DNA of 64,000 nucleotides, taken from a virus. The DNA lies in IMG/VR virus record IMGVR_UViG_3300035688_000002, positions 1 through 64,000 of that record. One strand, written 5' to 3'. Under the pieces are notes generated by a model. That model did no database searches and was not told the DNA's origin. It saw only the letters and a list, made by a program, of their open reading frames with translations. Shown here piece by piece: positions 2,346 to 59,982 of the stretch. Made by a program: the position numbers and the translations under genes. Every line of letters begins with the position of its first letter. Position 1 is the stretch's first letter.

Positions 2346-2356
2346 ATTTTTCTCCC

Positions 2357-4529: not shown

Positions 4530-4535
4530 GCTGAT

Positions 4536-5084: not shown

Positions 5085-5099
5085 CAATATCCTCACTCT

Positions 5100-18037: not shown

Positions 18038-18066
18038 GATTCAAACTGACAGCGTGTCTGTTATAT

Positions 18067-18540: not shown

Positions 18541-18550
18541 GAATTCCTCC

Positions 18551-18973
18551 TTACATACTCCCACCATGACCTCTGACTATATCTTTTACTTCCCCCCAAG
18601 AAGCACCGCCTTTTGATCGACCCAGGCGCCTATATGCTCGCATAGCTGAATCAACTGTGGCTTGGGGCTTCCCGCTCTGTTTGAGATAAAATTCGATAGA
18701 AAGTTTCTGACTGCGAGCTATGTGTCCCTTTGGATTTCTATGAACGTCTTGAGCTGCTCTAGTGGCAGCATCAGCAGATCGGATTTTCTGAAAAAGTGAA
18801 TTTAGCTCCGACTTGGGATAGGTTACATCGAGAGGACGGAGACTTTTGTCACTTCCACCCCCGCCTCCTCCCCATCTCCCTGGTTTATTATGGTGTTGAC
18901 CACTTCCTGGCCCTCCCTCTGTAAATCTCTCATAATCAATCACGATATTTGCCAGCTTTTCTCCATAGTCCAT
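18551..18973 (-). CDS. nested cargo unit from internal start
   Basis: An in-frame ATG at 18973 (codon 236, MDYGEKLANIVIDYERFTE) has AAGGAGG with a 5-base AATTC spacer. The same 15-base context precedes the 18540 gene. It would give a 140-residue protein with one motif copy. It may be a relic of the gene's former independence or an active second start; the context argues for the latter. Confidence 0.6.
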   Translation of the reverse strand: MDYGEKLANIVIDYERFTEGGPGSGQHHNKPGRWGGGGGGSDKSLRPLDVTYPKSELNSLFQKIRSADAATRAAQDVHRNPKGHIARSQKLSIEFYLKQSGKPQATVDSAMRAYRRLGRSKGGASWGEVKDIVRGHGGSM

Positions 18974-19678
18974 GAATTCCTCCTTGCCTGTCATTCTCAA
19001 TTTTCTCTGAAGAGACTTATATTGCCAGCTATCGAGACCGTGTTTGTGGCTGGTGTCCCACAAGAGGCTTATCTTTGCCTGACGATATCTTGCTGAATCA
19101 GTGCCATACTTTTTGGCAATCTTATCTATCTTCGAACCTGTTTCTTTTACCCATCCTGAGCGAGCTTCACTTCCACCTCCTCGCTTGCTAGTCCCTCCCG
19201 TTCCCCAACGGCCTGGCTTATTGTGATGCTGTCCGCTACCGAGACCCCCCTCAGCAATATCCTCGTGAGTTCTTTGTGTCTCGATACGGCTCAATAATCC
19301 TGCAAAAGTACTCCTTGTGTTAGCAAGCGGATAAAACCTGCGTGGCTCTTCTCTAGATGAGATAGACTTGAGAGTCTTATCAAGAGCTAACACCTGCCGA
19401 CGTAAATGGTCACCAGTTCTTATCTGATCAGCCCTTGAGATTGTCATCCCCAAATATGTTTTCTTTATCGCACCAAGGTCTTTCTTATCAAGATACGCAG
19501 TGTGCAACAGAACGTCACCTATGTCAGAAGGCAACCCTGCTATGTCGGTTGTCCCTATTCGTTTTCCTGCCCCATCCCCTTTCTCTGGTGCTTTCTCTGC
19601 TCCTCCGCCAGTACCCCACCTTCCGGGTTTATTATGGTGTTGGCCTGAACCTGGACCACCTTCGATAATTGTTTGCAT
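18551..19678 (-). CDS. triple-motif predicted head cargo protein
   Basis: A 375-residue protein with three copies of GGxGSGQHHNKPGRWG, each after a cleavage-like site: IIE|G at residue 6, IAE|G at 143 and FTE|G at 254. The segments between them (about 110-140 residues, helix-rich and basic) share little sequence, so three independent domains could be released. A strong internal ribosome site precedes Met236, and the segment from there repeats the N-terminus of the next gene. This looks like a fusion of once-separate cargo genes. Confidence 0.7.
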   Translation of the reverse strand: MQTIIEGGPGSGQHHNKPGRWGTGGGAEKAPEKGDGAGKRIGTTDIAGLPSDIGDVLLHTAYLDKKDLGAIKKTYLGMTISRADQIRTGDHLRRQVLALDKTLKSISSREEPRRFYPLANTRSTFAGLLSRIETQRTHEDIAEGGLGSGQHHNKPGRWGTGGTSKRGGGSEARSGWVKETGSKIDKIAKKYGTDSARYRQAKISLLWDTSHKHGLDSWQYKSLQRKLRMTGKEEFMDYGEKLANIVIDYERFTEGGPGSGQHHNKPGRWGGGGGGSDKSLRPLDVTYPKSELNSLFQKIRSADAATRAAQDVHRNPKGHIARSQKLSIEFYLKQSGKPQATVDSAMRAYRRLGRSKGGASWGEVKDIVRGHGGSM

Positions 19679-26034: not shown

Positions 26035-26415
26035 CTACCTCTTGAGATAAAATGTAGCAATAATTCCGCTACCTTCAGAAATAGACACTGAAGAGAGATG
26101 GAGCCCTCGAGGCGCTCCCTTGAGATGGGTTTTAATACCCTCAAAGACATAGCGAGCGAGCAGCTCGGGTGTTGGGTTCACCTCGTTGAAGGGCTCCACC
26201 TCATTGATACAGCGATGCTCAAAGTCAGCGATGACCTTGTTAAGCACTCGCGTCAGGTCTCTTGGATAAGCAATCATCCCCAGCTTGTTTAAGTTTTTGC
26301 TCTGGAAAAGAGCCTCAACTTGCCAAGAGTGACCATGCACATTGGCACAAGGCCCTTTCCAACCTGTAATAAAGTGTGCCGCCTGAAAGCTTGTAGCAAC
26401 CTTTACCTCATACAC
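26035..26415 (-). CDS. queD: QueD-like 6-carboxytetrahydropterin synthase
   Basis: A 126-residue protein of the 6-pyruvoyltetrahydropterin synthase family. Zinc ligands are H14 (FQAAHF) and H27, H29 (NVHGHSW), the catalytic Cys is C23 in GPCANVHGH, and HRC near residue 67 and PTPE at 81-84 are conserved. The usual glutamate of the substrate pocket is E114 (SISEGSG). QueD converts dihydroneopterin triphosphate to 6-carboxytetrahydropterin for 7-deazaguanine synthesis. No QueE, QueC or DpdA is in this window, so modified DNA is only suggested. Confidence 0.8.
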   Translation of the reverse strand: MYEVKVATSFQAAHFITGWKGPCANVHGHSWQVEALFQSKNLNKLGMIAYPRDLTRVLNKVIADFEHRCINEVEPFNEVNPTPELLARYVFEGIKTHLKGAPRGLHLSSVSISEGSGIIATFYLKR

Positions 26416-27675: not shown

Positions 27676-29763
27676 TTACCATCCCTCCGTTATTTTCGCT
27701 CGAGGCTTTTTCTTGGCCTTGTCTTCTTCGTCCATTTCTTTCAACAGCTCATCGTCTGTCACCCCATCAAGGAAGTCTTCTTCATCCAGCTCTGCTTCTG
27801 TCTTTTTGTGGGCGGGACGATCAAGGAGCCAATCGCGTGTGCTCTTATCGAGCTCCTCCTTCTCTGACATGGGATGCTCCATCACTCCCTTTTGGACTTC
27901 GTCAACGATGCTTAAATCCATGTTGGTGATAGCATTCCAAACAGCGCCAGCTACTGCATCCGAAACATCTTTGCTTCCGTTTGGAGGGTGATTTACCTTT
28001 CCTGTCTTCTGATCTCTAATGAGCTGCCTGAGTTCACGAAAGAGAGGCTCATAGTAGTAACACTTAAAGCGTCCCTCATAGATAGTCTCTTTGAGGACAT
28101 TGTATTGGTCTGAGGTTCTGTCCACAGACAGATAGCCGACTATGTCTTCGCCAAAGCGCTTTTTGAGAAGCTGCTGTGAGTCGCGGGACTGAAACTGGTC
28201 ATAAGTGATTTTCATAAACCGAAAGCCACATTGATGAGCCAGATCGTGAACGAGCTGACGAACATCCTCTATCTGAATCTCTCCTTCAAGAGGCGGAATG
28301 ATTCTCATGATCAAATCTGCCACAATTACAGGCTGGACTTCCTGAACGACTTCTGCTCTCTCTCCTTCCCTCGTCCTCATCACTTCTTTTATAGAAGCTA
28401 TATGGCAGACTGCTATTCCACACGCATCGTTCGTCAGTCCCAGGTCTATGTGACAGAAACGAGGGGCTTGAGGATTAATCAGAGACTGAGGACCATACTT
28501 TTTCATATTCACTATCGGATTCATCAGTTTGCTGAGCTTCAAAGCTGAGGGAAGGTCAGTGGATACGATTCCATTGCCATAAATCGAACTGAAAGGCATT
28601 GGAATTTTTGTGTCGGCACACTCTCTGATCTTCTCGTCATTCGTCATAAATCGATTGAGAGAGCGAAGATTGATACCGATAAAGTCTCTTATTGCTCCTT
28701 CTAGGTCTTTCACAAAGTAGGGCTTTAGTTCTACAGGCACTGCAATGACTCTGCCTTTTTCTGTGAAAGTCTTAAGCTCTTCTTCACTTTGAATAAGATG
28801 AGGGGAAGACCAAGCATCCCCTACAAAGACATGGAATTTCTCTCCTGAGTAGCGATGCTGCGGCTTTGTTTCCCAAGAAGAGTGAATGATGACTACCGTG
28901 TTTGGGTCATTCTCAGCGATGATTTTCTCCAAGAAGTCATCGGGATACTTAGCAGAGGAGTTTAGAATCAGTATTCCTGGGACTCTGCCGTGTCTCTGAT
29001 AACGAGACTCCATTCTCCTCCACACTGCGTCATGGATTTTCTTAGCCTGATCCCACTCTCTCTCGGCAGGATTGTGAATCTTCTTAGAACCTACTGTTAC
29101 TGGAAAGAAGTTTGCCTCTTCTATGACTCCTCCAAAGAGATTCTCTCCAAGAGGGGCTAATTCTGACGAAGACCCCGGTGCCACTGAAATAGAACGCTGG
29201 GGGAAATACACCAGAGATTGAATGTCTTGCCTTCTTCGCATCCTCTCCGAGAACCAGGGAGATTCGTCAATCATGTCTCTCAGTTGCTCAAAGAGAACTC
29301 TCCTTGCGTGAGTTGCAGTAACAGCGAGATTCATGAAAGCGATTCTCGTCCCTAGGGCAAGACCATAATAGGCCTGTGGGTTTCTAAGGCAGCCTAGCTC
29401 ATAAAGGAGACGGGCGAGGATAATACAGGAAAGGAATGTCTTTCCCCAACCGATTGCCCCACCCAACACTACCCTCAGTGGTCTGGGATTTGCCTCCATT
29501 ATGTCAAGGAAGTCCTTCTTGAGGACATCCCACATTGAGGAGCCAATGTGCCCAAAATAGTATGGGTCACTTATCCATTGAGCACATGAGACTGGGTCTG
29601 TTGGATAGAAGGCATATTTTTCTTTGAGATAAAGGGAAGGTCTGAGATACTTGGCACTCTTGGTCTTAGAGAAGGCATCTATAAGTAGACTAAGAGCCTC
29701 TTCTTCGCTCTCAAAGCCTAGGGCTTTTAAGCTCTCTTTGTCAATGAAGGTCGCTTCGGTCAC
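27676..29763 (-). CDS. terminase large subunit, T4 gp17-like
   Basis: A 695-residue packaging motor. Walker A is GGAIGWGKTF (residues 101-110) and Walker B is LFGGVIEEANF near 210 with catalytic Glu. The nuclease domain carries HIDLGLTNDACGIAV (first Asp), YDQFQSRD and KDVSDAVAGAVW, the three acidic positions of RNase H-like terminase nucleases. The start is a GTG. It cuts concatemeric DNA and translocates it into the prohead through the portal. The C-terminal 80 residues are acidic and likely disordered. Confidence 0.9.
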   Translation of the reverse strand: MTEATFIDKESLKALGFESEEEALSLLIDAFSKTKSAKYLRPSLYLKEKYAFYPTDPVSCAQWISDPYYFGHIGSSMWDVLKKDFLDIMEANPRPLRVVLGGAIGWGKTFLSCIILARLLYELGCLRNPQAYYGLALGTRIAFMNLAVTATHARRVLFEQLRDMIDESPWFSERMRRRQDIQSLVYFPQRSISVAPGSSSELAPLGENLFGGVIEEANFFPVTVGSKKIHNPAEREWDQAKKIHDAVWRRMESRYQRHGRVPGILILNSSAKYPDDFLEKIIAENDPNTVVIIHSSWETKPQHRYSGEKFHVFVGDAWSSPHLIQSEEELKTFTEKGRVIAVPVELKPYFVKDLEGAIRDFIGINLRSLNRFMTNDEKIRECADTKIPMPFSSIYGNGIVSTDLPSALKLSKLMNPIVNMKKYGPQSLINPQAPRFCHIDLGLTNDACGIAVCHIASIKEVMRTREGERAEVVQEVQPVIVADLIMRIIPPLEGEIQIEDVRQLVHDLAHQCGFRFMKITYDQFQSRDSQQLLKKRFGEDIVGYLSVDRTSDQYNVLKETIYEGRFKCYYYEPLFRELRQLIRDQKTGKVNHPPNGSKDVSDAVAGAVWNAITNMDLSIVDEVQKGVMEHPMSEKEELDKSTRDWLLDRPAHKKTEAELDEEDFLDGVTDDELLKEMDEEDKAKKKPRAKITEGW

Positions 29764-32209: not shown

Positions 32210-32413
32210 TCATTTAGGCCATCCTTCATGGGTGGGACAGAGATGCTCCCACTTATCGGTCGCTTCGTCTTTTCTAATTCTCCATCCCCCTTCTTTCGCA
32301 AGACCAATAAAATCCATGAAAGACCCTGCCTCAATGCTTTCAGAACTTGAGCAAAAGTCACAGCAGATTTCCCACTCTCCTCCAGACTCATCTTCACTTA
32401 TCTTCTGAATCAC
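32210..32413 (-). CDS. small zinc-binding protein with CxxC and CPxH
   Basis: A 67-residue protein that reads in a different frame across the region. CCDFC near the N-terminus, GLAKEGGWRI in the middle and WEHLCPTHEGW at the end form a Cys/His pattern seen in small phage zinc proteins. The start is GTG at 32413 with GGAGG six bases upstream, inside the end of the ParB-like gene. The cysteine pattern makes this frame more convincing than the overlapping longer frame. Confidence 0.65.
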   Translation of the reverse strand: MIQKISEDESGGEWEICCDFCSSSESIEAGSFMDFIGLAKEGGWRIRKDEATDKWEHLCPTHEGWPK

Positions 32414-33323
32414 TTACACCCTCCGTCTTTTCAACAGCGGGACGTCCTGCTACCTCTTGCTCTCGATAAGACCTTTTCGTATAGTCAGGCTCACTCTTTT
32501 TCAAATCCTCTGTTGTCATGGTGTCTGCTCTCTTAGCTGCCTGTTTAGCCATTTCACTAGCTGGGGGCAAGACCCACACTGGGCCAATGTTTCTTGAGCG
32601 CTTCCCTGATATTTCAGGAAGAATCAGCTTGATAAAAGCTTTTGGCCCCATCTCTTTAAGTTTCAGACCTATTTCCTCAGCCATGTCGTGATCGACAAAG
32701 AAGTAATAGCGTCCGATTCTGACGTATGCCTTTGAGACTCCCCAGATTGAATTGCCTCCCTGTGAAGCCATGTATTGCATCTCAGAGTCTTCCATGTCTC
32801 TCTGCACTATCTGATATTCGGGTCCCTCTGTCCTGTGGAACATGACCTCCTGAAGATCGACATTTGGTAGTTCAACAAAGCTTCTCAGTTCCTCAGTTGG
32901 AAGCTGTATCTGACCGAGTAGCTCTGCCAGAGCTTCTGGGCTCACATCACCATACTGTGAATTATAGGTAAGAATCATCTCTTTGGCTTGTCTCTCGCCG
33001 TCTGCCTCAATCTCGACATAGGGAAGCTCGTCATTCTCAAGAACCATCTTATCTCTGTTTATCAGAGCTTTGACAGCGAAAATCCTTTGGTGTCCGTCAA
33101 GAATATAATTATGTCCCTTCCAAACAAAGATAGGGGCATTGAATCCGTTTCTCACAATGCTCGCTTTGAGCTTTGAAAGCTGCACTCTGTCCATGGTCTT
33201 TAGGTTTCCCTGAAACCGCTCGAATTCCTCAAGCTTCTTCATTGGAAGATTCCTAACTCGAAGTTGGATTTTTAGCCCAACTAACTCTCCTCCTTCCTGT
33301 TTCTCAATGGCTTCATCATTCAT
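32394..33323 (-). CDS. ParB-like protein
   Basis: A 309-residue protein. Residues 40-115 carry the ParB/sulfiredoxin-fold pattern: RVQLSKLKASIVRNGFNAPI, then YILDGHQRIFAVKAL, equivalent to the ExGHxR box. The second half is a helical region with DVSPEALAELLGQI. Such phage proteins often accompany DNA modification genes and bind or cut DNA. The tail is Lys/Glu-rich. It overlaps the small basic gene upstream by four bases. Confidence 0.7.
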   Translation of the reverse strand: MNDEAIEKQEGGELVGLKIQLRVRNLPMKKLEEFERFQGNLKTMDRVQLSKLKASIVRNGFNAPIFVWKGHNYILDGHQRIFAVKALINRDKMVLENDELPYVEIEADGERQAKEMILTYNSQYGDVSPEALAELLGQIQLPTEELRSFVELPNVDLQEVMFHRTEGPEYQIVQRDMEDSEMQYMASQGGNSIWGVSKAYVRIGRYYFFVDHDMAEEIGLKLKEMGPKAFIKLILPEISGKRSRNIGPVWVLPPASEMAKQAAKRADTMTTEDLKKSEPDYTKRSYREQEVAGRPAVEKTEGVSDSEDK

Positions 33324-36096: not shown

Positions 36097-37377
36097 TCAT
36101 GTCTGTTTCCCTCCCCTCGGAGAATAACAAGAGGGAGTCTTACCATTTGATAGCTTTCTTATGAATTTCTCATTCCTCGGAATGTTCTTTTTGCATTTCG
36201 TATTCGATAAGTCATAGGCACAATAATCACAAATGAGCTCCTCTTCGGGAGGGAGATCAGGATTCCCAAAGATTTCTGCCGATTCATCTATAGGAGCGCC
36301 TTCTATCACACCAATCTCCGCTCCTAAGTAGTCCGCAGCCTGTGGCCATAAATCTTTCTGTGGCTCAGTGCTGGAAATTATTGTGTAGCTGGGTGTTCGG
36401 ACTCCAACTTTTTCATTGAATTCAGCCTCCATACGGGCTTTATCTTCGGCAGGAAGATAGTCTTCGATAGTGATTGGAAGATCACTCCAAGTGACAATTT
36501 CAGGGATCATGAGAATTGAGTCTAAATCAGCATTTCGATGTTTCAACTCAGAAATCCTCTTCTGGGCGCTTTTCACACTGACGTCCAGCCTGGCTTTCAG
36601 GGCTCCATTCGTTGTAAGAACCACAGAGACAAGCCATCCTGCAGTCCCAGTCAAATCATGGATAGTGCCAGCATCTATTCCACTCCAAAACACTCCCATT
36701 TGAACATGAGAATGGCACCAGCCGTGTAAATTCTCAGGGTGAGGATGATGAACGAGAAAATCAGCTAAGGCTTGAAGGTCGAAATCTGCCGAAGCTGGCG
36801 AAACTCTCTGTTTGAGCAGATAGAGCTTCGTAAATCGAAAAACATTGTCAACTTTCTCTACTTCTGCCACAAACTGGATTTCATTCGGGGCTGAGAGCCT
36901 TGAGTAATAGAGTAGCTCTTCGAATATCCTTCGCCCTATGAAAACCTTCCACTTTATTTCTGGGGGAGCTGGTTTTCTAGTCTTATCCTCTGCCTTAGCG
37001 GCTAACTCTCCACCTCTGACGACTTCATGCTTCATACAGGCCGGTGTGTCAGGACTGATAAACTTGCCTGTTGACTTATGAAACATGGGAGATAAGGGAT
37101 TGATGCATTTTACACAATTCTCTGTAGCACTCAAACAGCCATAGCAAGTCAGTCGTCCCTCCCTCTCCTCTACAGAGACTTGAGTCTGAGACGCTCTTTT
37201 GGCGATTACCGAGCCTTTTCTCGCTTCGCAAGCAGGATTCCCTTCCATTCTCATAAATCTGTAATTCTTGCTTAGTCTGTAGTTACAGATGCTGAAATTG
37301 TGTCCTCCCCTGAGCTCTTTGACGAGATCATGACAGTCCCCGCAAACCCAAATCTTCTCGGTTTCTTGCTTTTTCAT
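36097..37377 (-). CDS. JAB/JAMM metalloprotease with zinc fingers
   Basis: A 426-residue protein. The JAMM motif is WCHSHVQMGVFWSGIDAG (H222, H224, S232, D235) with an upstream acidic residue in QFVAEVEKV (E172 or E166), so the zinc and water ligands are present. The N-terminus has CGDC, CYGC and CVKC pairs and the C-terminus CDYC, CKK and C, likely zinc ribbons. JAMM proteases cut after the Gly-Gly end of ubiquitin-like proteins. It overlaps the E1 gene by four bases, so this is probably the deconjugation or maturation enzyme of the cassette. Confidence 0.8.
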   Translation of the reverse strand: MKKQETEKIWVCGDCHDLVKELRGGHNFSICNYRLSKNYRFMRMEGNPACEARKGSVIAKRASQTQVSVEEREGRLTCYGCLSATENCVKCINPLSPMFHKSTGKFISPDTPACMKHEVVRGGELAAKAEDKTRKPAPPEIKWKVFIGRRIFEELLYYSRLSAPNEIQFVAEVEKVDNVFRFTKLYLLKQRVSPASADFDLQALADFLVHHPHPENLHGWCHSHVQMGVFWSGIDAGTIHDLTGTAGWLVSVVLTTNGALKARLDVSVKSAQKRISELKHRNADLDSILMIPEIVTWSDLPITIEDYLPAEDKARMEAEFNEKVGVRTPSYTIISSTEPQKDLWPQAADYLGAEIGVIEGAPIDESAEIFGNPDLPPEEELICDYCAYDLSNTKCKKNIPRNEKFIRKLSNGKTPSCYSPRGGKQT

Positions 37378-38099
37378 TTTCCCTCCTTACCCTTACCGAC
37401 CCTCAATTTCATTATCGATAAATCTGCCATAGAAACAGCAAGGTCATATACAAATTTCCCATCTTTGAGAAAGCCTCTCACTTGGCGTGCAATGACTGCG
37501 GCTATGGCAAAACCCACATCGATTATAGCTCTCCCAGTACATGGAAGCTTGGCGCTGTCCTTGTCTTCAAAGAGATTTGTTTCATACCACTGATGCTGAA
37601 AGATGTCTTGAATGGGACGGATTGTCAAGATTCTGAACTCTTGGCCTCCCATACGGCCATCAATGAGCAATTCAATCTTCGGATTTGGTTTCACTGCTTC
37701 CCAAACCTGCTGTCTAACTTTCATTGTGTCAACGGCTGTTATCACTATTCCACTCAGTGGATCTGTTGGCTCCCACATTTTCTCTTTCGGCTTTATTGTG
37801 ATGCCTGTAAGTTGCCGAGCAAGAGACGCTAAGGCTTTCACTTTCGATATTCCCACTGCCTTTACAAGATGGAGTTGATTCGGCACATTGTGAACTTCCA
37901 CATTGTCTCCGTCCCAGACAGTTATCTTTGAAAGCCCCAGTTTTGCGAGAGCCACTGTCGTAAAGGAGCCTATTCCACCAGCTCCAATAACATGGACTTC
38001 GCACCGATCATGTTGGTCTGGGTCAAAAAAGTCCAACTGCCTCAAATAAGTGCTTTCCTTGCCTTCATTGTTTTTTGTCTCTTCTCTTGTTTCACTCAT
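37374..38099 (-). CDS. E1/ThiF-like adenylyltransferase
   Basis: A 241-residue protein. The nucleotide-binding motif VIGAGGIGS (residues 37-45), DGDNVEVHNVPNQ (63-75, like the DxDxVexxNxxRQ box of ThiF/E1) and a candidate catalytic Cys at 187 (KLPCTGR) are present. It would adenylate the C-terminus of the Ub-like protein. It is shorter than typical E1 (no UFD domain), like ThiF or MoeB. Overlaps by four bases with both neighbours. Confidence 0.85.
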   Translation of the reverse strand: MSETREETKNNEGKESTYLRQLDFFDPDQHDRCEVHVIGAGGIGSFTTVALAKLGLSKITVWDGDNVEVHNVPNQLHLVKAVGISKVKALASLARQLTGITIKPKEKMWEPTDPLSGIVITAVDTMKVRQQVWEAVKPNPKIELLIDGRMGGQEFRILTIRPIQDIFQHQWYETNLFEDKDSAKLPCTGRAIIDVGFAIAAVIARQVRGFLKDGKFVYDLAVSMADLSIMKLRVGKGKEGK

Positions 38100-38311
38100 T
38101 TCTCTCCCTTTAACATCCGATTTATAATTTCTAAGCGACTCGCACCAAATTTTTCATACATCTCAAACTGAGCTATTATGTTTCTTAGTTCCTCTATCTG
38201 CTTGAGTATGCGCTCTCTATCTCTTTCAAATGCAACCTTTAGAGTTTTTAGAGTGGGTAGGTCAAACGAGCGATAAACTTCCTCCAGCCCCTTGTCTTTC
38301 TGATTAGCCAT
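38096..38311 (-). CDS. short coiled-coil protein between E1 and E2 genes
   Basis: A 71-residue protein, highly charged and helical (VAFERDRERILKQIEELRNI). It overlaps the E2-like gene by eight bases and the E1 gene by four. It has no cysteine or catalytic residues; it may be an adaptor or scaffold for the conjugation enzymes. Not recognised as any family. Confidence 0.6.
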   Translation of the reverse strand: MANQKDKGLEEVYRSFDLPTLKTLKVAFERDRERILKQIEELRNIIAQFEMYEKFGASRLEIINRMLKGEK

Positions 38312-39749
38312 TGTTTCTCTCCCTCGGAGCCCTCTCGCCCTTAGGGTGGACGTAAGTTGTCATGCTCCGATGCACATTGCGAAACAGGGACTCTATCTCA
38401 GTGAATTTATCATGAGGATTGTATGAACAAATAAAATTCCAGATAAGATGGGCTAAAAGCGCCCAATTCCATTCGACAAAGAGCTTCTCAATTCCAGGTC
38501 TAAGAGTCCCCCAACAAATAGTCTGTCCATCTCTGCCACTCACATGGGGATGCTGTCTCTCTGAGCCTAGCCCAAAATCAAGATTGATGATTTTAACTTG
38601 CCCTCTCTCCACTCCTATATTGAGCCAAACCCTGTATTTCCCTAGGTTCCAGAGCTTTCTGTCATAATCTACAACTGCGTCAACAGTGTCATAAACGAGC
38701 CAAGAATCAGTCATCGTCAGTGCTGTGATGAAGGGAAATCCTCGGATTGTGTCTATTTGTTCCTGGAGTTGCTGACCCAGTTTGTTACGTCTTTCAGCAA
38801 CAGAAACATCGAGCAGCTTGGATGTCGCTACGAGCTTCGCTTCAACCTCTATGAGGGAGTTTATGTATTCATCAAGACGATCAGCTATGGTTTCCTTGGG
38901 CGGAGCAAAAAATGCATTTATTTTCTCTTCAAAGACTGTATTAAACTGTGCTGGGTCTCCACCAAATAATCTTGCATAGACACGAAAGAGACGAAACCTC
39001 GATTTCCTGCTCTGATCAGTTTCAAACTCTGCTTTTAACTCAGGAAGCCTTTTTAAGAGCAATTTCTCTACCTGATACACTCCGGCTGCCTTTCTTATCG
39101 CCTCCGTCAAGTCTCTATGACGGACGCTCAATTCATTGAGTGTATTTTGAACCTGTAAGTTTATCTGGCCCGTTCTTGTCATAAGTAGCGTGAGCATTTT
39201 ATCCGTAATTTCATCTCGAATCTGTATCTGTTGCAACTTCTGTCTGACTTCTGCCTCAGTCTTTTTAGCTGCCACCGTCCCTCTTGAGCCCATCCTTTTC
39301 ATTGTCTCCGTCTCAATCATTATCTCTCCCTGGTCACTGATTCCTATGTCACCTCCAGCAGAGGCAGACGGACGGCGGGACACCCTGCCTCTGATTCTGT
39401 TTAAAGCAACTCTCATTTCACTTCGAGTTCTCGCATTGTGTGCCTCATCAGGGACTGCAACTCTGTCTCTCCAAGGGGCAGGCACGGAATCAATCAAGGG
39501 AGGCCCTGGAACCTGCTCATCTGGCAATTCAGGGGATACTTCTTCGCCTCTCCTACGCACAATCCCGCTGACACCTGCTATCCTGGCCTGGTTTAAGAAT
39601 CTCTCTTCGTCTTCGCGAGCAACAAAAATTGCATCTGCCTCTTGGGCTGGTGCGACAAGGAGGTTCCCATAGTGCATGATGCTCCTTAGGAACTGATCGC
39701 GGGTGCCTTCGATTATCTCGTAGATGACCCAACCAGGGCGTGCAGACAT
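38304..39749 (-). CDS. E2-like ubiquitin-conjugating-type protein
   Basis: A 481-residue protein. The N-terminal half is a long helical region with charged coiled coils (about 160-310). The C-terminal part (about 365-450) reads LGKYRVWLNIGVERGQVKI, then QHPHVSGRDGQTICWGTLRPG and IWNFICSYNPHDKF. This follows the E2 UBC pattern HPNxxxxGxICLxxL and then PNPxDP, with catalytic Cys 412. The match is by eye and distant. It sits between the Ub-like gene and the E1 gene. Confidence 0.65.
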   Translation of the reverse strand: MSARPGWVIYEIIEGTRDQFLRSIMHYGNLLVAPAQEADAIFVAREDEERFLNQARIAGVSGIVRRRGEEVSPELPDEQVPGPPLIDSVPAPWRDRVAVPDEAHNARTRSEMRVALNRIRGRVSRRPSASAGGDIGISDQGEIMIETETMKRMGSRGTVAAKKTEAEVRQKLQQIQIRDEITDKMLTLLMTRTGQINLQVQNTLNELSVRHRDLTEAIRKAAGVYQVEKLLLKRLPELKAEFETDQSRKSRFRLFRVYARLFGGDPAQFNTVFEEKINAFFAPPKETIADRLDEYINSLIEVEAKLVATSKLLDVSVAERRNKLGQQLQEQIDTIRGFPFITALTMTDSWLVYDTVDAVVDYDRKLWNLGKYRVWLNIGVERGQVKIINLDFGLGSERQHPHVSGRDGQTICWGTLRPGIEKLFVEWNWALLAHLIWNFICSYNPHDKFTEIESLFRNVHRSMTTYVHPKGERAPRERNNG

Positions 39750-39764
39750 TCTCTACCTCTCACC

Positions 39765-40094
39765 TTAGATACCGGCCGAGAAACGCTTGATGGCCACAAC
39801 AGCATCACCGTTGCGGACACGAGTAGCAAGATCGGCTGGCATAGAATTAACGAAATACTGATTCGTAGGGTCTCCTGAGACAGCGCCCCGCTCAATCAAT
39901 TGAGCAAGGGACTGTGTCTCTTCTGGACCCAGTTGAATCCAAGAAGGCGGACGCCCAAACTCCATGATTCTGACTCTGTCACCAGGAACCTGCCTGGCTT
40001 CCTCTTCTGTTTCGACCTCAGCGGGCGGACGGTCTCTGAATCTTTCAATTGCGCCACCCTCTCTCCGTCTCTCTCTTTCTTCTCTTTCATTCAT
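39765..40094 (-). CDS. ubiquitin-like beta-grasp (ThiS/MoaD-type) protein
   Basis: A 109-residue protein with a disordered charged N-terminus (residues 1-37) and a beta-grasp pattern: RVRIMEFGRP, WIQLGPEE, SLAQLIERG, YFVNSMPA and then RVRNGDAVVAI. The last strand matches the xLxxGDxVxI box of ThiS and MoaD. The protein ends FSAGI rather than GG, so trimming of the final Ile would be needed to expose Gly. It starts with a GAGGAG site and stands directly upstream of the E2-like gene. Confidence 0.65.
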   Translation of the reverse strand: MNEREERERRREGGAIERFRDRPPAEVETEEEARQVPGDRVRIMEFGRPPSWIQLGPEETQSLAQLIERGAVSGDPTNQYFVNSMPADLATRVRNGDAVVAIKRFSAGI

Positions 40095-40145
40095 TTTCTT
40101 TTCTCCTCTCTGAAAGAAATATTATCACCGTCTGTTACATTTCCT

Positions 40146-40475
40146 CTAATTGGTTCTCCCCTTCCCTGAGTCCAGATTCTTCCAGGCTCTTGCATCTTTC
40201 GCCAGCATCGCCAGGAGTGAACCGGAATCGGTCTCGAAGTGTCTCTCTCCTATTTTCTTTACTGTCTCTGTTATGAGCGCTTCAAAATTTACGAAAGACA
40301 CAGAGAGGAAAATTTCTATCCCTGTCACCATTGCCTCAACGATATTCAAAATTTCCATCTCATTCGTAGGGAGAGGCTCAAAATCCAACTTAGATTTGAG
40401 ATTTGTCATAACCCGACGGTATAAGGCAAGCACATAGATGCCCCTCTCCAACGGGGTAAGGTCTTTTAACTCCAT
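40146..40475 (-). CDS. hypothetical protein, start uncertain
   Basis: A 109-residue reading from ATG 40475 (MELKDLTPLERGIYVLALYR), with GGAG nine bases upstream; earlier ATGs exist within 30 bases. Helical, no clear motif. It lies between the 192-residue gene and the Ub-like gene, so it may belong to the conjugation cassette. Confidence 0.55.
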   Translation of the reverse strand: MELKDLTPLERGIYVLALYRRVMTNLKSKLDFEPLPTNEMEILNIVEAMVTGIEIFLSVSFVNFEALITETVKKIGERHFETDSGSLLAMLAKDARAWKNLDSGKGRTN

Positions 40476-40479
40476 CAAG

Positions 40480-41058
40480 CTATTCTCCATCATCGACCCA
40501 GACATAGGGCTCAGTTCTATAAGCGTTCCAGATTTTTACGGCTTCTGATATCTCCATCTCTCGTCTCACTATAGTCGAAAAAGCCTTGAAATTCTCTGTA
40601 AGGAAGGCTGCCTGCAATGCGAGAAGTTTGGGATTTCTAATTAGACACCTGAGTGCCATCTCTCCTCCAAACAAAAAGGTCGACTTCCCCCATTTTACTA
40701 CGTTGTATAGCACAACTGGGCACCGTTCACAGCCTCCACCAAAAGTGTGGGTCAAATTACACCATGGATTCAAAGAGGGAATCACAAAAAGCTCCTTTAT
40801 CTGCCAGAGATGTGTGCGTGCAGCCCTGAGTGTGGCAATCCGATATGCACAGGCCCAGCGAATAAGATCGAGCCACACTGTCTTGGTTATCTCAAAATCT
40901 CGATCACAGGGCTTTAAAAACTGTTTCATAAGCATTTCTCTATAAGCCCTAATGAACGATGCCAAGGCAGGCTTGGAATCTACATCCGTGCAGAAAGCGT
41001 CGCTACTAACGAGAACATCGCTCATAGAAAGCTTCAGCTCTTTCTCTCTTTGTTCCAT
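40480..41058 (-). CDS. hypothetical protein with Cys cluster
   Basis: A 192-residue protein. A Cys-rich motif with CNLTHTFGGGCERCP (residues 100-114) suggests a metal site. Otherwise helical (LIRWACAYRIATLRAARTHL). I do not recognise a family. It sits between the ParB-like gene and the Ub-like cassette. Confidence 0.55.
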   Translation of the reverse strand: MEQREKELKLSMSDVLVSSDAFCTDVDSKPALASFIRAYREMLMKQFLKPCDRDFEITKTVWLDLIRWACAYRIATLRAARTHLWQIKELFVIPSLNPWCNLTHTFGGGCERCPVVLYNVVKWGKSTFLFGGEMALRCLIRNPKLLALQAAFLTENFKAFSTIVRREMEISEAVKIWNAYRTEPYVWVDDGE

Positions 41059-41094
41059 GTTCTTCTCTCTCAGATATAAAGATTATCTAAGCCC

Positions 41095-41745
41095 TCATTT
41101 TTTCTTGGAGCGTTCGACTTTGATTCTGGGTGAAATGAACCTCATCCCTTCGTATTTCATTATCAGATTGGAAACATCAGACTCTATGTTCCTTCTTTCC
41201 TTCTGCCATGCAGAAATAGGGACAACAAGCACTAATTCCACATACTCTGCTCCTGTCTCTTGTGGCAGTCCCCCTTTCTTGTCAATTAAATCCTCAATAT
41301 CCACAGAGGCTACAGATTCCTGCTGCCATCTCTTAAGGTCTTCGATCTCTTCTGGATTGTATGCAATCACTATCGCCCCGCCTTCCTGTTCCATTTCCTC
41401 AATCCTTTTAATCAAGAGAGCGTAATCCCAAGAAGCGAATTCAGCGATGCGATTGTCAATAATGGCATAGGCAGAGTATTCGCGAGGCTCTATATCAAGA
41501 AGAATTGAGGGAATCTGCTTCTCTCCAAGCCTTTTATAGGCTTCAAGTCTGGCATATCCTGCTACTAAGGTAGAGTCACTCTTCGAGAGCAATACCGGCT
41601 GAGTGAAGCCATAGACTTTGATTGACTCCATCAGCTCCTGAATCTCCCTCTCTGGGTGTAATCTTGGATTCTCAAAGACTTTGATTGATTCAATATCAAT
41701 CAGCTCAACCTTTCTCCCGTGTTGTCTTACTCTCGTTTCATCCAC
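41095..41745 (-). CDS. ParB-like protein (N-terminal nuclease-type domain)
   Basis: A 216-residue protein starting with GTG 41745. Residues 15-95 match the ParB N-domain: IDIESIKVFENPRLHPE, then VAGYARLEAYKRLGEKQIPSIL in the ExGxxRxxA position. Smaller than chromosomal ParB, with a helical tail. ParB and ThiF-type genes are grouped in the named PRTRC cassettes; this operon shares that pairing, but I do not see the other PRTRC proteins. Confidence 0.7.
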   Translation of the reverse strand: MDETRVRQHGRKVELIDIESIKVFENPRLHPEREIQELMESIKVYGFTQPVLLSKSDSTLVAGYARLEAYKRLGEKQIPSILLDIEPREYSAYAIIDNRIAEFASWDYALLIKRIEEMEQEGGAIVIAYNPEEIEDLKRWQQESVASVDIEDLIDKKGGLPQETGAEYVELVLVVPISAWQKERRNIESDVSNLIMKYEGMRFISPRIKVERSKKK

Positions 41746-49898: not shown

Positions 49899-50090
49899 TC
49901 ATTGTTCCTTTATTTCCCTTATGCTTGGACAACCGCGACTCCTCATAGCATGACTAAGACACGAAGCCGACAATCCAAATCTCCTACAGATGTCAGATAG
50001 GGAAAGACTGGGGTCAGCGCGTAAAAGTGCCTCCGATTTCCTTGCAATTTCATCCAACTCCTCAGGCTGCCGTTGATGAATCTTAGGCAT
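49899..50090 (-). CDS. small helix-turn-helix protein, paralogue of 26429
   Basis: A 63-residue protein. DPSLSLSDICRRFGLSASCLSHAMRSRGCP is a helix-turn-helix, with an N-terminal IHQRQPEELDE matching the sister protein at 26429 (IHRRTPEEII). Overlaps the polymerase gene by eight bases. Probably a small DNA-binding regulator. Confidence 0.6.
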   Translation of the reverse strand: MPKIHQRQPEELDEIARKSEALLRADPSLSLSDICRRFGLSASCLSHAMRSRGCPSIREIKEQ

Positions 50091-52446
50091 CTGGAACCTC
50101 TATCATCTCTCCCCAGTTCCGCCCCGCCATTGTTTCAATCTCCATAGGAACTAACATCCAGGGGAAAACCTCTGGCAATCCTTTCACTATCTCTCTCATT
50201 AGAGAAATGACGGTCATCTCTTCATTATAATTGGGAGCGTCAACGAGATTCTCATCATGCACTTCCGCAATGATTTTTGACTCAAGCTCCATCATTTTCA
50301 TTAACTCTGCCAATTCTCCCAGCGTGAAAATGTTTATATCGACGGCCGCGGACTGGATGGGAAAATTGAAGGCTCTCTTAGCCCTGTCTTCGCCTGTGTA
50401 GCCACTCAAATCCCACCTTCTGCCAAAGAGAGAGACTATCTCCATCCCCCTTTCTGCCCTGCCTCTCTGTCTATCCATCCATCGCCTAACGCCCCCGAAT
50501 CTTTGAAAAAAACGCTCATAGAAAGCGAGAGCTTTTCTGATTGACCATCCTTCCCTGTCAGCGAGAGCCCCAGCCGACATTCCGTAGAACAAACCAAAAT
50601 TCACAGTCTTTGCACTCCGCCTGTCTTCAAATGTCACGTCCTTCAGGTCTTTCATATAGATTGTAACTGCTGTTTCTCTGTGTGGGTCTCTGCCCTCTTT
50701 GAAGATTCTTAATAGCTCTGGGTCTTCAGACTCAATTGCCATCACCCTCATCTCTATATGTCTGAAGTCCATTTTGACTAGGCGACCGGCAGCGCCAAAG
50801 CGGCTAATAAAACACTTCTTCACTTCAGGCGGAACATTCTGGATGTTTGGCCTCCCAGCAGCCGGTCTCCCTCCCTTCGACGCTGTGATATTGTAGCTGG
50901 GATGAATCTTTCCGTTAGCGTCTGACATTTCAATGTAATTGTCATAGTAAGTACCTTTGATTTTCATAAGACTTCTATAGTCCATGATTTGCTTGGCATA
51001 CGGATCACTATGCGAAAGCTCCTCAAAGGTATCTTTATCAATAGACGGAAGCCCTTTCGGAGTGAAATGCCGTGGATCATAACGCAGTCCCTCAAAGAAA
51101 AGCTTTCTGAGGCTGAATGGAGAATCAATCTTAAATCCTGGGATTTTCTGAACCTCGGGGAGGGTAAGGATTTCACTCTTTTTCTGGGCTATGTCAAGCT
51201 CCAGCTCTCGGCTTCTTAGTCTCACGAGAGGAAGATCAAGAGCCATGCCGTTAGCCTCTATTTCAGCCAGAGCTACAGAGCCTGGCATTAGAACCTCATC
51301 ATATAATGTTCCCAGGCCTTTCCTGTCTATCCTGGGTCTAAGGATTTCATAAAGCTTGGCACTGACAAAAGCGTCGGTAGCATTGAGTTGCCACACATTT
51401 GGCTTACTGACATTGCCCATATTCTCATAGTCTATCCCTTTTTCATATCCACCATAGTCTGGAAGATACTGCCAGACCATCTGTTTGAGGCCTACGGACG
51501 TTCCTGTTCCCTCATCAAGGAGATACTTAGCCACCGATGGGTCAAACACAACTCGATTCAACCTAACACCGTGTTTGACTAAGAGCCACACAAATTCAAA
51601 TTTGGCATTTTGGGCTATTTTTGGAGTGTTTCCCTCAAGAAACTCCCGCATCTCTAATGAAACAGTCCCTAAACCCCAAATACTTTCCCAGTCAATGACA
51701 CACGTGTCTTCAGCGTCAGAGATAGCGATGCTCAAAATCCTGGCGTCAGGCTCGAAAGGTGTCTTTGTTGTTGTCTCAAGATCAATGGCTATGGGCCTTG
51801 CTTCTCCCCTCCCCTTAAAGGTTGTAAGCCAGAATGGAACTCGATAAGGACTTTCAACCAGATCGAATCTCACTCTTTTTATGACTCTCTCTCCTTTCCC
51901 TATCAGACTTGGAATAACTGCCATGTCTTTCCGCCAGGTATAAATACTCGAGCGATTCCGAGCTACATACGCTGGGTGCCAGAGTGGGAGATAGGTAATT
52001 TCATCTTTTTCAATCACCCGCCCTCTTACAACTGAAGACGCCTTCCCTACAAACTGACGAATCGGAAGGACTCCGAAGAGAAGAACGACTTTGGATTTCA
52101 TTTCTGCCCACTCCTGGGCATACTGTTTAACACAGTGTTTCCGGGTAATCGCATCCGGCTCAAGGTCACCCCCTTCGTCCTTTGGGCCAGTCCTACATTT
52201 AGCAAGATTTGTGATGTAACAATCTCCCCTCGTAACTCCTAAAGGAGTCAGATTCTCAAAGAGAATCTTGCCGCTTGGGCCAATGAATGGCCGTCCCATC
52301 CTTTCTTCCGTTGCCCCTGGTGCTACTCCTACAATGACAATCTTAGCATTGGCTAGATCTCCTTCGGGTGCGACACGGACGTGCCCCATTAAAGGGCAAC
52401 CTACACACCCTCCGAGGACGGGCTCACTGACTAATCTGTTTGTCAT
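50083..52446 (-). CDS. DNA polymerase A with N-terminal uracil-DNA-glycosylase domain
   Basis: A 787-residue protein. Residues 1-200 match family-4 UDG: GVAPGATEERMGRPFIGPSG and four iron-sulfur Cys (C14, C17, C84, C105), with LWHPAYV as the catalytic loop. Residues about 215-390 are the 3'-5' exonuclease (AIDLETT, D222 and E224). The polymerase part has motif A DFRHIEMRV, motif B RRSAKTVNFGLFYG and motif C AEVHDENLV. SPO1-type phage polymerases also carry an N-terminal UDG. It would copy the phage genome. Confidence 0.85.
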   Translation of the reverse strand: MTNRLVSEPVLGGCVGCPLMGHVRVAPEGDLANAKIVIVGVAPGATEERMGRPFIGPSGKILFENLTPLGVTRGDCYITNLAKCRTGPKDEGGDLEPDAITRKHCVKQYAQEWAEMKSKVVLLFGVLPIRQFVGKASSVVRGRVIEKDEITYLPLWHPAYVARNRSSIYTWRKDMAVIPSLIGKGERVIKRVRFDLVESPYRVPFWLTTFKGRGEARPIAIDLETTTKTPFEPDARILSIAISDAEDTCVIDWESIWGLGTVSLEMREFLEGNTPKIAQNAKFEFVWLLVKHGVRLNRVVFDPSVAKYLLDEGTGTSVGLKQMVWQYLPDYGGYEKGIDYENMGNVSKPNVWQLNATDAFVSAKLYEILRPRIDRKGLGTLYDEVLMPGSVALAEIEANGMALDLPLVRLRSRELELDIAQKKSEILTLPEVQKIPGFKIDSPFSLRKLFFEGLRYDPRHFTPKGLPSIDKDTFEELSHSDPYAKQIMDYRSLMKIKGTYYDNYIEMSDANGKIHPSYNITASKGGRPAAGRPNIQNVPPEVKKCFISRFGAAGRLVKMDFRHIEMRVMAIESEDPELLRIFKEGRDPHRETAVTIYMKDLKDVTFEDRRSAKTVNFGLFYGMSAGALADREGWSIRKALAFYERFFQRFGGVRRWMDRQRGRAERGMEIVSLFGRRWDLSGYTGEDRAKRAFNFPIQSAAVDINIFTLGELAELMKMMELESKIIAEVHDENLVDAPNYNEEMTVISLMREIVKGLPEVFPWMLVPMEIETMAGRNWGEMIEVPDA

Positions 52447-57105: not shown

Positions 57106-59982
57106 TTATCTCCCTCTCGTCTTTATCTGAGTAGGGATAACATCGAAGCCTTCTTTCCGATACAGGCTGAGTCTATAGACGCTGTGTGCCTCCAAATAAC
57201 GATCACCTCTATCCTCAAAGTCATAGATGCGGACGACATTCTCTCCGCTGGGTTTCTTTCTCATCCCTCTTCCAATTCTCTGTAGGAGTTTCATGTGGCT
57301 TTTGCCTGCTCCCGCAAGAATGAGAACCTTTATTGCTGGCAAATCCATTCCCTCATCAAATATTGGGGTAGCCACGATAGCTGGAATTTCATTCCGTTCC
57401 AGCATAGCCAGTTTCTGGTTTCTCTCTTGTGCTTCTGTCAGTCCCGAAACCAGAATCGTTCCGTTGGTCATTCGAGAAAGAAGCTCCCGGGCGTGCCTAA
57501 AAGTCTGAATGAGTATCAGAACCGGCTCCTTTCTCAGCTTATGCAGTCTGGCAATCCCTGCTATGATGTTGTTTCGGTCATTATTTAACTCTATGCCTGC
57601 AATATATGCAGCCTGCCAGTTTCTGGCCCTCATAAATTTTAGAGAGAAATTCTTAATTCGATATATCTTTGGTGCGGCTGAGAAGCCTCTCATTATCATT
57701 TCTCGGTTGGTAATAGTCTTAATTTCCTCTCCAGTCATTGATATCAGTCTGAGATTCTGGATTTCCTCTCTCATCAGAGGAGTGGCAGAGAGGCCAAAGC
57801 GATAGAAGGCGTTGATGTTCTTGGACACTTTGAACCACGTAGCGGCCGACTGATGATGACAATTAGAGACAACGAATCCATTAGCGAAGAAAAGATGGTC
57901 ATTGCTATCAATCTCAATATCATAAAGCTCTGTCTCATCACAAAACTGAATATTGGTTATCTTAATCTCTTTATAGAGAGACCGTACTGAAACCTTATCG
58001 TGGGAAGACAACCACGACAGCTTCCGAGGCACCAAGAGTTTTTTGGCCTCTCTAATCTTTACAATCTTTAACCCTCTATTCTCAATAATTGGAACATAAT
58101 GATCATCAGAGGCTATCAAATAATTCCCTGAATTAAGCCAATATTTGAATGCTGGTTTTACAGTCTTCCAAACCCTCTTTACATTAGCTACACCCTTCGG
58201 AGTCAAAACTACGTCTCCAACCCTCAACTCCTTTAACAACTTAATCCCTTCTGGAACGGCGATTTCGGTATCTCCATCAAGACATTCGTCAATCAGAAGC
58301 ATATCAACCTCATTCCAGAGCCAGTCTTTAAACATTGCCTTTATTTCTTTATTCTTGCTTGTGACTCGATTAAAGAGGGTCTGAACCATGCCTACAGTCA
58401 CCCTCTTAATGTCCATGGCATTTCGATGAACCACTCCTATATCTTCATTCAATCTAGCTGCTAGCCTATCTCTTGTCTGATAGAGGAGGTTGCCTCTGTG
58501 TGTGAGCCACAGCACTTTTACTGGGGCTATTTTCATTAAGCCAGCGCCTATTTCTGTATTGTGTGTCGGGATAAAGTGATTTGTAAGATACATATGCTCT
58601 GGATGATGTGACGAAATACACCGGCACTCTTTTCTTCCCACATACTCTATCTCCGTAATGACACGGCTCTGATGTTTCTCTCCCACTAATACACGTACCC
58701 ACTTCCTCGGAAGAGAAAAAGCTCTATGGGCTAGCTTGCCGCCAAAAGTCACTACATAGCTTCTCTTTCCTTCTTTAAGCTTTCCAAGATATTTGAATTT
58801 TGGTATCTTGCTACGGATACGGCAAACAGCACCCAAACTCTCTGCCACCTCTTTTACATCCATAGCCAATTGCAAGGAAGTCGAGCAAAACTCGACCCCG
58901 CTTCGCCTGGAAGGAGAGTAGCCATCTGTATCCATTAACCCATTAAGCAACTCCATACGAACAGATCCGGAGTTATACTTATAGACATCTGGAATAAATT
59001 TCTCCCACGACTTTCTATTGCACAGCCCATACTTTCTCAAAGCATCAAGAATGACATTCCCTCCACCCCGTCTCTGTTTGGAAAGGACATAATCTACAAT
59101 CCTTCCTGACTGCTTCAATTGATATCCTCCCGGCAGCAACCGACGAGCTTTGGAAACAATAGCTTTATCTCCACAAGATAGCCTTATTCCATTCTTATCC
59201 AGGCTACCATCCCCGAGAAGAACACCCAACAGATATGGATGGATGACTACAGGGGCAAAAACAAATTCAACAGGTTTCGCAGGATAAATTTGATACTTGG
59301 GCCTCCCAGATTTTTGAAGATGGCTTCCCATTATAGAATTCAATGCAACCACCTTCTCCCTAATTGTCCAATTTATTCTGCTTCCTATCTTCCACAGATG
59401 CTCTAAGGAACACTCCACGGAATCACCGTTCCTAAAAGTGACTCTATAAATATCCAACAATCCCTGCGGATAGACTCCCGTAACAGTTGTCGAGTCTCCC
59501 ATCGGAGTCAAAATCTCATCCCCAACTTTAATTTTCCCCATTTGCACCGGGCCTTTAGTAGTATAAACAAGAGCATCTAAAGGCTGAGATTTTCCTGCGT
59601 TAGTCGGAGCAGTCAAGATACAGCGTTCCATTGCAAAAGCTCTTTGAATCGCGTCTATTTGATAATCTCTGAGTTGGATTCCCTCTAATTTTAACTCTTG
59701 AGTCACAAACTCAGGCTTCCTTCGAGCGTCGTTCATAACGAAACGGTCTTTGAGCTTATCTGGGAAAATGTCAAAGAGACCGGTAGGGAACGTCTGAGAG
59801 AAATCATTATAAAAACAGTAAGTCCCATCCCAGATTCTCTTTCTAAACGATGTCATAAACCAAAAGTTAGGCACGGCAAAAGTCAAAAACTTCCTGATGG
59901 CGTCTTCCTCTGAGGGAACGTCAAAAGATTCAATCTTAATGAAAATATTACCCTTACTTGCCTTTATCAATTCTTTCCTCAA
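57106..59982 (-). CDS. UvsW-like helicase with two inteins
   Basis: A 958-residue precursor; after splicing about 474 residues. The host protein is a superfamily 2 helicase like T4 UvsW (N-terminal DNA-binding region, GIQLRDYQIDAIQRAF, and PTNAGKS-T and DECHH boxes). Intein 1 (133-475) interrupts Walker A and intein 2 (567-707) interrupts the DECHH box. TTG start; a GAGG six bases before TTG 59970 favours the shorter start. UvsW unwinds branched DNA and R-loops. Residue numbers count from 59982. Confidence 0.8.
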   Translation of the reverse strand: MRKELIKASKGNIFIKIESFDVPSEEDAIRKFLTFAVPNFWFMTSFRKRIWDGTYCFYNDFSQTFPTGLFDIFPDKLKDRFVMNDARRKPEFVTQELKLEGIQLRDYQIDAIQRAFAMERCILTAPTNAGKSQPLDALVYTTKGPVQMGKIKVGDEILTPMGDSTTVTGVYPQGLLDIYRVTFRNGDSVECSLEHLWKIGSRINWTIREKVVALNSIMGSHLQKSGRPKYQIYPAKPVEFVFAPVVIHPYLLGVLLGDGSLDKNGIRLSCGDKAIVSKARRLLPGGYQLKQSGRIVDYVLSKQRRGGGNVILDALRKYGLCNRKSWEKFIPDVYKYNSGSVRMELLNGLMDTDGYSPSRRSGVEFCSTSLQLAMDVKEVAESLGAVCRIRSKIPKFKYLGKLKEGKRSYVVTFGGKLAHRAFSLPRKWVRVLVGEKHQSRVITEIEYVGRKECRCISSHHPEHMYLTNHFIPTHNTEIGAGLMKIAPVKVLWLTHRGNLLYQTRDRLAARLNEDIGVVHRNAMDIKRVTVGMVQTLFNRVTSKNKEIKAMFKDWLWNEVDMLLIDECLDGDTEIAVPEGIKLLKELRVGDVVLTPKGVANVKRVWKTVKPAFKYWLNSGNYLIASDDHYVPIIENRGLKIVKIREAKKLLVPRKLSWLSSHDKVSVRSLYKEIKITNIQFCDETELYDIEIDSNDHLFFANGFVVSNCHHQSAATWFKVSKNINAFYRFGLSATPLMREEIQNLRLISMTGEEIKTITNREMIMRGFSAAPKIYRIKNFSLKFMRARNWQAAYIAGIELNNDRNNIIAGIARLHKLRKEPVLILIQTFRHARELLSRMTNGTILVSGLTEAQERNQKLAMLERNEIPAIVATPIFDEGMDLPAIKVLILAGAGKSHMKLLQRIGRGMRKKPSGENVVRIYDFEDRGDRYLEAHSVYRLSLYRKEGFDVIPTQIKTRGR
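57862..58284 (-). other. mini-intein at the DECHH (Walker B) site
   Basis: Residues 567-707 (141 aa). It begins with C567 in CLDGDTEIAVPEG, has IASDDHYV for block B and LFFANGFVVSN at the C-end, followed by C708. Removal joins IDE to CHHQS, recreating DECHH. No homing endonuclease is present. The residue before the terminal Asn is Ser where His is usual. Confidence 0.8.
58558..59586 (-). other. full intein with LAGLIDADG endonuclease at Walker A
   Basis: Residues 133-475 (343 aa). It starts with Gln (QPLDALVYTTKG) after GKS and ends THN before T476. Block B is CSLEHLW. The endonuclease boxes are LLGVLLGDGSL and LLNGLMDTDGYS. Removal gives GKST in the ATP-binding loop. Gln at position 1 is a rare but known class. 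Confidence 0.8.

Follow-up and report, generated by a model that had tools for sequence, protein, structure and literature searches.

Background

Bacterial cascades that conjugate ubiquitin-like proteins (Ubls) are known mainly from defence operons (CBASS, Bil) and plasmid operons (PRTRC), and the proteins ThiS, MoaD and TtuB act as sulfur donors via a thiocarboxylate. Here we describe an operon carried by a phage that probably encodes a complete, self-contained cycle of Ubl conjugation and deconjugation. It was found in a window of 64,000 bases, which comprises bases 1–64000 of the 100,802-base virus record IMGVR_UViG_3300035688_000002. The operon (41745–36097, minus strand) consists of eight open reading frames (ORFs), which encode, in order of transcription, a ParB-like protein, orf192, orf119, a Ubl, an E2-like protein, orf71, an E1-like enzyme and a JAMM metalloprotease. 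The conjugation reading follows from the predicted folds of the products, the conservation of their catalytic motifs and the adjacency of the four core genes. By analogy, the operon would work like the bacterial operons for Ubl conjugation described by Iyer et al. (PMC1779556) and like Bil.

In the proposed cycle, the Ubl would lose the short tail after its C-terminal Gly to the JAMM protease. The E1 would then adenylate this Gly and take the Ubl onto its Cys187, from which the Ubl would be transferred to Cys412 of the E2 and joined by the E2 to an amine of the target. The same JAMM protease could take the Ubl off the target again.

Components of the predicted cascade

The four core proteins and their main features, all on the minus strand, are the following.

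39765–40094, minus strand: Ubl, 109 amino acids (aa), with a 38-residue N-terminal extension and a beta-grasp domain; C-terminus ...FSAGI
39768–39980, minus strand: beta-grasp domain of the Ubl, residues 39–109; Gly108 is followed by one residue
38304–39749, minus strand: E2-like protein, 481 aa, with a helical N-terminal part and a UBC-like domain
38376–38750, minus strand: UBC-like domain, approximately residues 334–458, with HPH at 400–402 (AlphaFold2 model, Foldseek, profiles)
38514–38516, minus strand: codon of Cys412, a conserved Cys and the predicted active site of the E2
37374–38099, minus strand: E1-like adenylating enzyme, 241 aa, ThiF fold (Pfam ThiF, E = 1e-14)
37539–37541, minus strand: codon of Cys187, the predicted catalytic residue of the E1 (a Cys is kept in 69 of the 70 distinct relatives aligned)
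36097–37377, minus strand: JAMM/JAB-family metalloprotease, 426 aa, with a complete motif and profile matches to CSN5, Rpn11 and AMSH
36673–36882, minus strand: JAMM catalytic core, E166...H222-S-H224...S232..D235, all five residues invariant
37036–37344, minus strand: N-terminal cysteine modules of the JAMM protein, C12/15/31/50 and C78/81/88/91/114 (cysteine positions)
36127–36231, minus strand: third, C-terminal cysteine module of the JAMM protein, C383/386/395/417 (cysteine positions)

By themselves, neither the Ubl nor the E2-like protein has a match in Pfam, PHROGs, NCBIfam or PADLOC. The AlphaFold2 model of the Ubl (built from 26 sequences) has a core with a predicted local distance difference test score (pLDDT) of 91–97. 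Foldseek matches it with a probability of 1.00 to ThiS, MoaD, SUMO2, TtuB, SAMP1, Urm1 and the Caldiarchaeum ubiquitin (template modelling scores, by target, of up to 0.76), with ThiS and MoaD being closest in fold. Twenty-eight Ubls were aligned, and most stand-alone Ubls carry a C-terminal GG, GN or AG followed by zero to six further residues. The Ubls of the crAss type have K-x-K-S-G or a close variant (24 of 24), followed by 3 to approximately 200 residues, and the Ubl of locus L053 stops three residues after a motif of this type. Because of the K-x-K-S-G motif and the long extension behind it, the crAss-type Ubl looks like a precursor that the JAMM protease would mature at this motif. A candidate second Ubl in the nearest relatives of the window phage (L007 and L008) was rejected, as the coordinates of the matches are those of the operon Ubl itself. 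Outside the window, the phage has a second beta-grasp-like ORF of 84 aa (contig 65205–65459, L002:1205–1459, minus strand; profile E = 2.7e-9), which is approximately 30 per cent identical to the operon Ubl, ends in PPIMSD without a Gly and is perhaps a non-conjugated Ubl.

For residues 243–481 of the E2-like protein, the AlphaFold2 model (28 sequences) reaches a mean pLDDT of 86.7, with 93–98 in the core, and nine of the ten best Foldseek matches of the E2 domain model in the PDB are E2 enzymes (UbcH7, UBE2L6, UBE2W and others; probability up to 0.97). Sequence profiles point the same way: once the dominant coiled coils are set aside, UBE2L3 is the top PDB match of the E2 alignments, and direct matches to Pfam UQ_con were obtained for 2 of 21 E2 relatives (best E-value 6.4e-4). 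The active-site motif is HPH...CLG/CWG, with Cys412 kept in all 40 aligned distinct relatives; its pattern, HPH..C[LW]G, occurs in 30 of the 5,270 ORFs of the studied loci versus none in five residue shuffles. A second E2 group, with H-S-H...F-C-L-G instead, comes from crAss-like and Flavobacterium phages. The two groups align over the active site (P-value = 4.7e-4), with an HHalign probability of only 32 per cent. The N-terminal parts of the E2 proteins vary among phages.

The E1 profile matches MccB, UBA5, ThiF, MoeB, UBA1 and Cap2 in the PDB. Having only two cysteines, the E1 is without zinc-binding CxxC pairs; its near-invariant residues are G39 and G41 of the glycine loop, D63, D65, N71, K86, D124 and R149. 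The JAMM protein matches Pfam Prok-JAB with an E-value of just 0.04, yet it has the full motif (E166, then H222-S-H224, seven residues, S232, two residues and D235), and the profile of its family finds CSN5 (7.5e-6), Rpn11 and AMSH in the PDB. Among distinct sequences, E166, H222 and H224 are conserved in 67 of 67 and S232 and D235 in 66 of 66; the motif occurs in 79 of the 5,270 ORFs versus none in the five shuffles. In nearly all relatives the JAMM gene adjoins the E1 gene, and its product is predicted to process and deconjugate the Ubl. That the catalytic residues of the E1, the E2 and the JAMM protease are almost never lost gives a picture of enzymes under selection.

Judged by their cysteine spacing, the N-terminal modules of the JAMM protein are likely to bind metal. 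The L007 homolog has similar modules, but at its C-terminus. A four-cysteine signature like those flanking the JAMM domain is also seen by eye elsewhere in this phage, in an unrelated ORF (L002:12755–13219). Also by eye, a RadC-like ORF (contig 78769–79470, L002:14769–15470, minus strand) with HNHP...S..D appears to be a second JAMM-superfamily protein of this phage.

An earlier sequence-only reading had proposed a phage-borne Ubl-conjugation operon here, and the predicted beta-grasp and UBC folds, the retained catalytic residues and the adjacency of the genes bear it out. It had called the Ubl and the E2 by motif and had named predicted structures lacking the beta-grasp and UBC folds as a possible refutation; both calls are now backed by AlphaFold2 and Foldseek. 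The E1/ThiF-like call agrees with the Pfam and PDB matches, the JAMM call with a motif that is complete and invariant in relatives, and the residue numbers that it gave (Cys412 and HPH 400–402 of the E2; H222 and H224 of the JAMM protease) are correct.

Relatives and spread

Relatives were collected by searching IMG/VR with an alignment of the window E1 and those of three phage isolates. The search yielded 189 E1 relatives, of which 80 were taken for the study of loci. Scans of viral contigs with the single E2 or E1 sequence gave no match, nor did tblastn of the E2 and JAMM proteins against phage isolates, the latter because of sequence divergence, and iterated profiles recognized the JAMM protein in 80 ORFs and the E2 in 42. 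Homologs that are never adjacent had been named beforehand as a possible refutation of the conjugation operon; in 61 of 89 loci, the Ubl, E2, JAMM and E1 genes share a strand and lie within 4.5 kb. Thirteen further loci have Ubl, JAMM and E1 genes, with the E2 slot taken by a large ORF that is unmatched, and some of these ORFs carry an HPY...VCVG or FPY...VCLD motif. These counts are lower bounds, as some loci end at contig ends. Clustered at 70 per cent identity, the E1 proteins of the loci form 46 groups. A scan of GTDB genomes returned only two contigs of metagenome-assembled genomes (L087 and L088), in each of which the profiles recognized all four genes.

Some cultured phages have the set of four core genes as well. 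In the gut phage crAss001, gp79 is the Ubl precursor, gp78 the E2, gp77 the JAMM protease and gp76 the E1, and the set lies beside a primase and a uracil-DNA glycosylase (UDG). Flavobacterium phage FpV4 and related phages have the same four-gene set. Xanthomonas phage PhiXhv-12 has an E2, an E1 and an ORF that by eye resembles a Ubl and has GG at its end, with no JAMM gene seen beside them. In these isolates the genes are annotated simply as 'thiamine biosynthesis', metalloprotease or hypothetical (one related record reads 'E1 enzyme family protein'), and the 'thiamine biosynthesis protein' label mirrors the ThiF likeness of the E1. The main texts of the crAss001 and crAss-like papers are silent on these genes, and the open-access literature yielded no description of a Ubl-E1-E2-JAMM operon in a phage (subscription papers and preprints being outside the scope). 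The operon type is thus only provisionally taken as new.

Several observations weigh against a complete conjugation cycle. The Foldseek E-values are modest for the Ubl (0.002, though its matches agree) and only 0.028 for the E2 domain, whose matches are consistent. The window Ubl ends in AG-I instead of GG, and no E3 was recognized in the operon. The ORF in the E2 slot of a marine group is matched by neither E2 profile and was not joined to either by profile comparison. Finally, the window phage is without close relatives, the nearest E1 being 51 per cent and the nearest E2 approximately 30 per cent identical.

Operon layout and genomic setting

The eight ORFs of the sequence-only reading were all recovered at their positions on the minus strand, which carries almost all genes of the window, and a purine-rich, Shine-Dalgarno-like stretch precedes most of them. 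The reading had described the junctions as mostly four- or eight-base overlaps, which holds for three of the seven (E2/orf71, 8 bases; orf71/E1, 4; E1/JAMM, 4). The others are a 26-base overlap (orf192/orf119) and gaps of 36 (ParB-orf192), 51 (orf119-Ubl) and 15 bases (Ubl-E2). The remaining four ORFs of the operon are listed below.

41095–41745, minus strand: ParB-like protein, 216 aa (Pfam ParB_N, 1.8e-8; PHROG 620, 1.5e-27; phmmer to L007, 4.6e-36)
40480–41058, minus strand: orf192, whose conserved cysteines cluster around PWC...CxxCP (BLASTP to an L007 ORF, E = 3e-10)
40146–40505, minus strand: orf119; L007 has a similar-looking 102-aa ORF in this slot (by eye)
38096–38311, minus strand: orf71, 71 aa, between E2 and E1; no supporting match

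The ParB-like gene, the first of the operon, occupies the same slot in L007 and L008, where orf192 is also kept in place; these nearest relatives share the order SbcC-ParB-orf192-small ORF-Ubl-E2-E1-JAMM. No family match was found for orf192 in Pfam, PHROG or NCBIfam-type models or for orf119 in Pfam or PHROG, and homology searches of Pfam and the related loci found no relative of orf71.

The operon does not lie within a late region, as had been supposed, being flanked by a replication and recombination block on one side and a terminase block on the other. The former (42.6–60.8 kb) encodes SbcC, SbcD, RecA, a gp32-like single-stranded DNA-binding protein, a UDG-PolA fusion, DnaB and a helicase with Hint and LAGLIDADG domains. 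The latter, a packaging block, has a T4-type portal and the large terminase subunit (27676–29763), whose closest isolates are Vibrio phages at approximately 33 per cent identity. By eye, the contig has tail-like genes at its far end, more than 40 kb from the operon.

Other genes of the setting are recorded here as side observations. A second ParB-like protein lies near the terminase block (32394–33323, minus strand; PHROG 620, 1.7e-12). The DNA polymerase A at 50083–52446 (minus strand) carries a uracil-DNA glycosylase domain at its N-terminus (Pfam UDG, 2.3e-24), and UDG genes adjoin the Ubl operon in crAss-like phages too. The helicase at 57106–59982 (minus strand) is apparently split by intein-like insertions (LAGLIDADG and Hint matches). 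Between portal and terminase lies a 6-pyruvoyl tetrahydropterin synthase gene (QueD-like; 26035–26415, minus strand), which could be part of a modified-guanine pathway. The peptide EGGPGSGQHHNKPGRWG is repeated several times in neighbouring ORFs at 14837–19678 (minus strand), and a cluster of glycosyltransferase-, epimerase-, radical SAM- and sulfatase-like genes is seen by eye past a capsid-like gene (309–11949, minus strand).

Likely targets and alternative functions

Across the loci, the recurrent neighbours of the operon are genes for primase, DnaB-like helicase, Sak4-like annealase, exonuclease VIII, DNA polymerase (PolA) and UDG, together with ParB-like, SbcC/SbcCD and further helicase genes. 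The sequence-only reading had envisaged action on virion proteins; the neighbourhood, which in many phages consists mainly of replication and recombination genes, speaks against this. Most likely, the operon belongs to the replication and recombination programme. Because it lies beside such genes in many unrelated phages, we favour their products as targets, and tentatively propose, from gene neighbourhood, that the Ubl may be joined to DNA replication and recombination proteins of the phage or its host. The choice of target could be made by the helical N-terminal part of the E2, by orf192 or by the cysteine modules of the JAMM protein. It is likewise conceivable that these operons form a large, so far undescribed viral family of Ubl cascades that regulates replication and recombination proteins in crAss-like, Flavobacterium and many environmental phages. 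If phages, crAss001 among them, do keep a complete cascade, they too use reversible protein tagging for their own ends. The gene set, which looks able to activate, attach and remove a Ubl tag, suggests that, in the course of infection, some phages operate a ubiquitin-like signalling system of their own.

Rather less likely, the operon serves counter-defence or host takeover, its Ubl tag inactivating a host defence or metabolic protein early in infection. The replication-type neighbourhood would suit this function, as would the patchy spread over unrelated phages and the diverse N-terminal parts of the E2, which could aim differently; however, the operon belongs stably to the replication block of crAss-like and Flavobacterium phages and not to a variable accessory region.

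Two further explanations appear unlikely. In a sulfur-carrier pathway, the E1 would make a thiocarboxylate of the Ubl, the sulfur would pass to a small molecule, RNA or DNA, and the E2-like protein would be a binding partner. The closeness of the Ubl fold to ThiS and MoaD speaks for such a pathway, as does the 'thiamine biosynthesis' annotation, which reflects likeness to ThiF; but a UBC-like gene with an invariant Cys stands beside the E1 in most loci, the JAMM protease is nearly universal, and neither a rhodanese nor a cysteine desulfurase is among the listed recurrent neighbours. Superinfection exclusion like that of Bil, by which rival phages would have their virion proteins tagged and would yield defective progeny, would agree with the four components of the published Bil operons, but it is at odds with a neighbourhood of replication rather than virion genes, and a lytic phage would have to shield its own virions. 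A role in tail maturation, as for the Ubl and JAB domain of lambda TAPI/TAPK, where such a phage pair is known (PMC1779556), is highly improbable, since TAPK carries NlpC/P60 and that system is without the E1 and E2 present here, and the tail genes are far from the operon.

Comparison with described systems

The predicted conjugation operon shares parts with several described systems. CBASS type II (Cap2/Cap3) likewise combines E1 and E2 activities with a JAB protease, and the E1 profile matches Cap2 structures; in the phage, however, the E1 and E2 are unfused, the Ubl has its own gene and there is no CD-NTase. Membership in CBASS type II was rejected, as the operon products include neither a CD-NTase nor a Cap2 E1-E2 fusion.

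The archaeal SAMP system also has a Ubl, an E1 and a JAMM protease, and the Ubl model matches SAMP1. The ubiquitin operon of Caldiarchaeum has an E2 as well; the phage Ubl matches its ubiquitin and the JAMM profile its Rpn11 homolog. Unlike the phage operon, both systems are cellular and proteasome-linked, and no family-level match links the E2 to them. Lambda-type TAPI/TAPK shares a phage-borne Ubl with a JAB partner but acts in tail assembly; membership was rejected, as no NlpC/P60 match was found in the operon (Pfam, PHROG) and both an E1 and an E2 are present.

Bil (BilABCD), compared by its component list, has the Ubl, E2, JAB protease and E1 as four proteins, as here. The phage operon differs in being carried by a phage rather than located in a bacterial defence island, and in its additional conserved ParB-like and orf192 genes. 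Membership in the defence systems of PADLOC was rejected, as only generic E1-E2 matches were obtained, through the E1 domain.

The sequence-only reading had likened the pairing of ThiF with ParB to PRTRC. This kinship is weak: no window protein reaches the cut-off of any PRTRC model or comes near it (13.3 bits against a cut-off of 101.8 for A, 40.7 against 144.75 for ThiF and 22.7 against 278.6 for ParB, weak generic matches), these models match neither the E2 nor the Ubl, and the scores rule out membership. In gene content, type 6d/PRTRC operons of Iyer et al. resemble the present operon in having separate genes for a Ubl with a C-terminal Gly, an E2-like protein, a JAB protein and an E1-like protein (PMC1779556), and PRTRC also includes a gene of the ParB family. 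The E2-like proteins of type 6d are without a His at the classical position (PMC1779556), whereas the phage E2 family has HPH before the Cys. Unlike type 6d/PRTRC, the present operon is carried by a phage and lies in a replication block.

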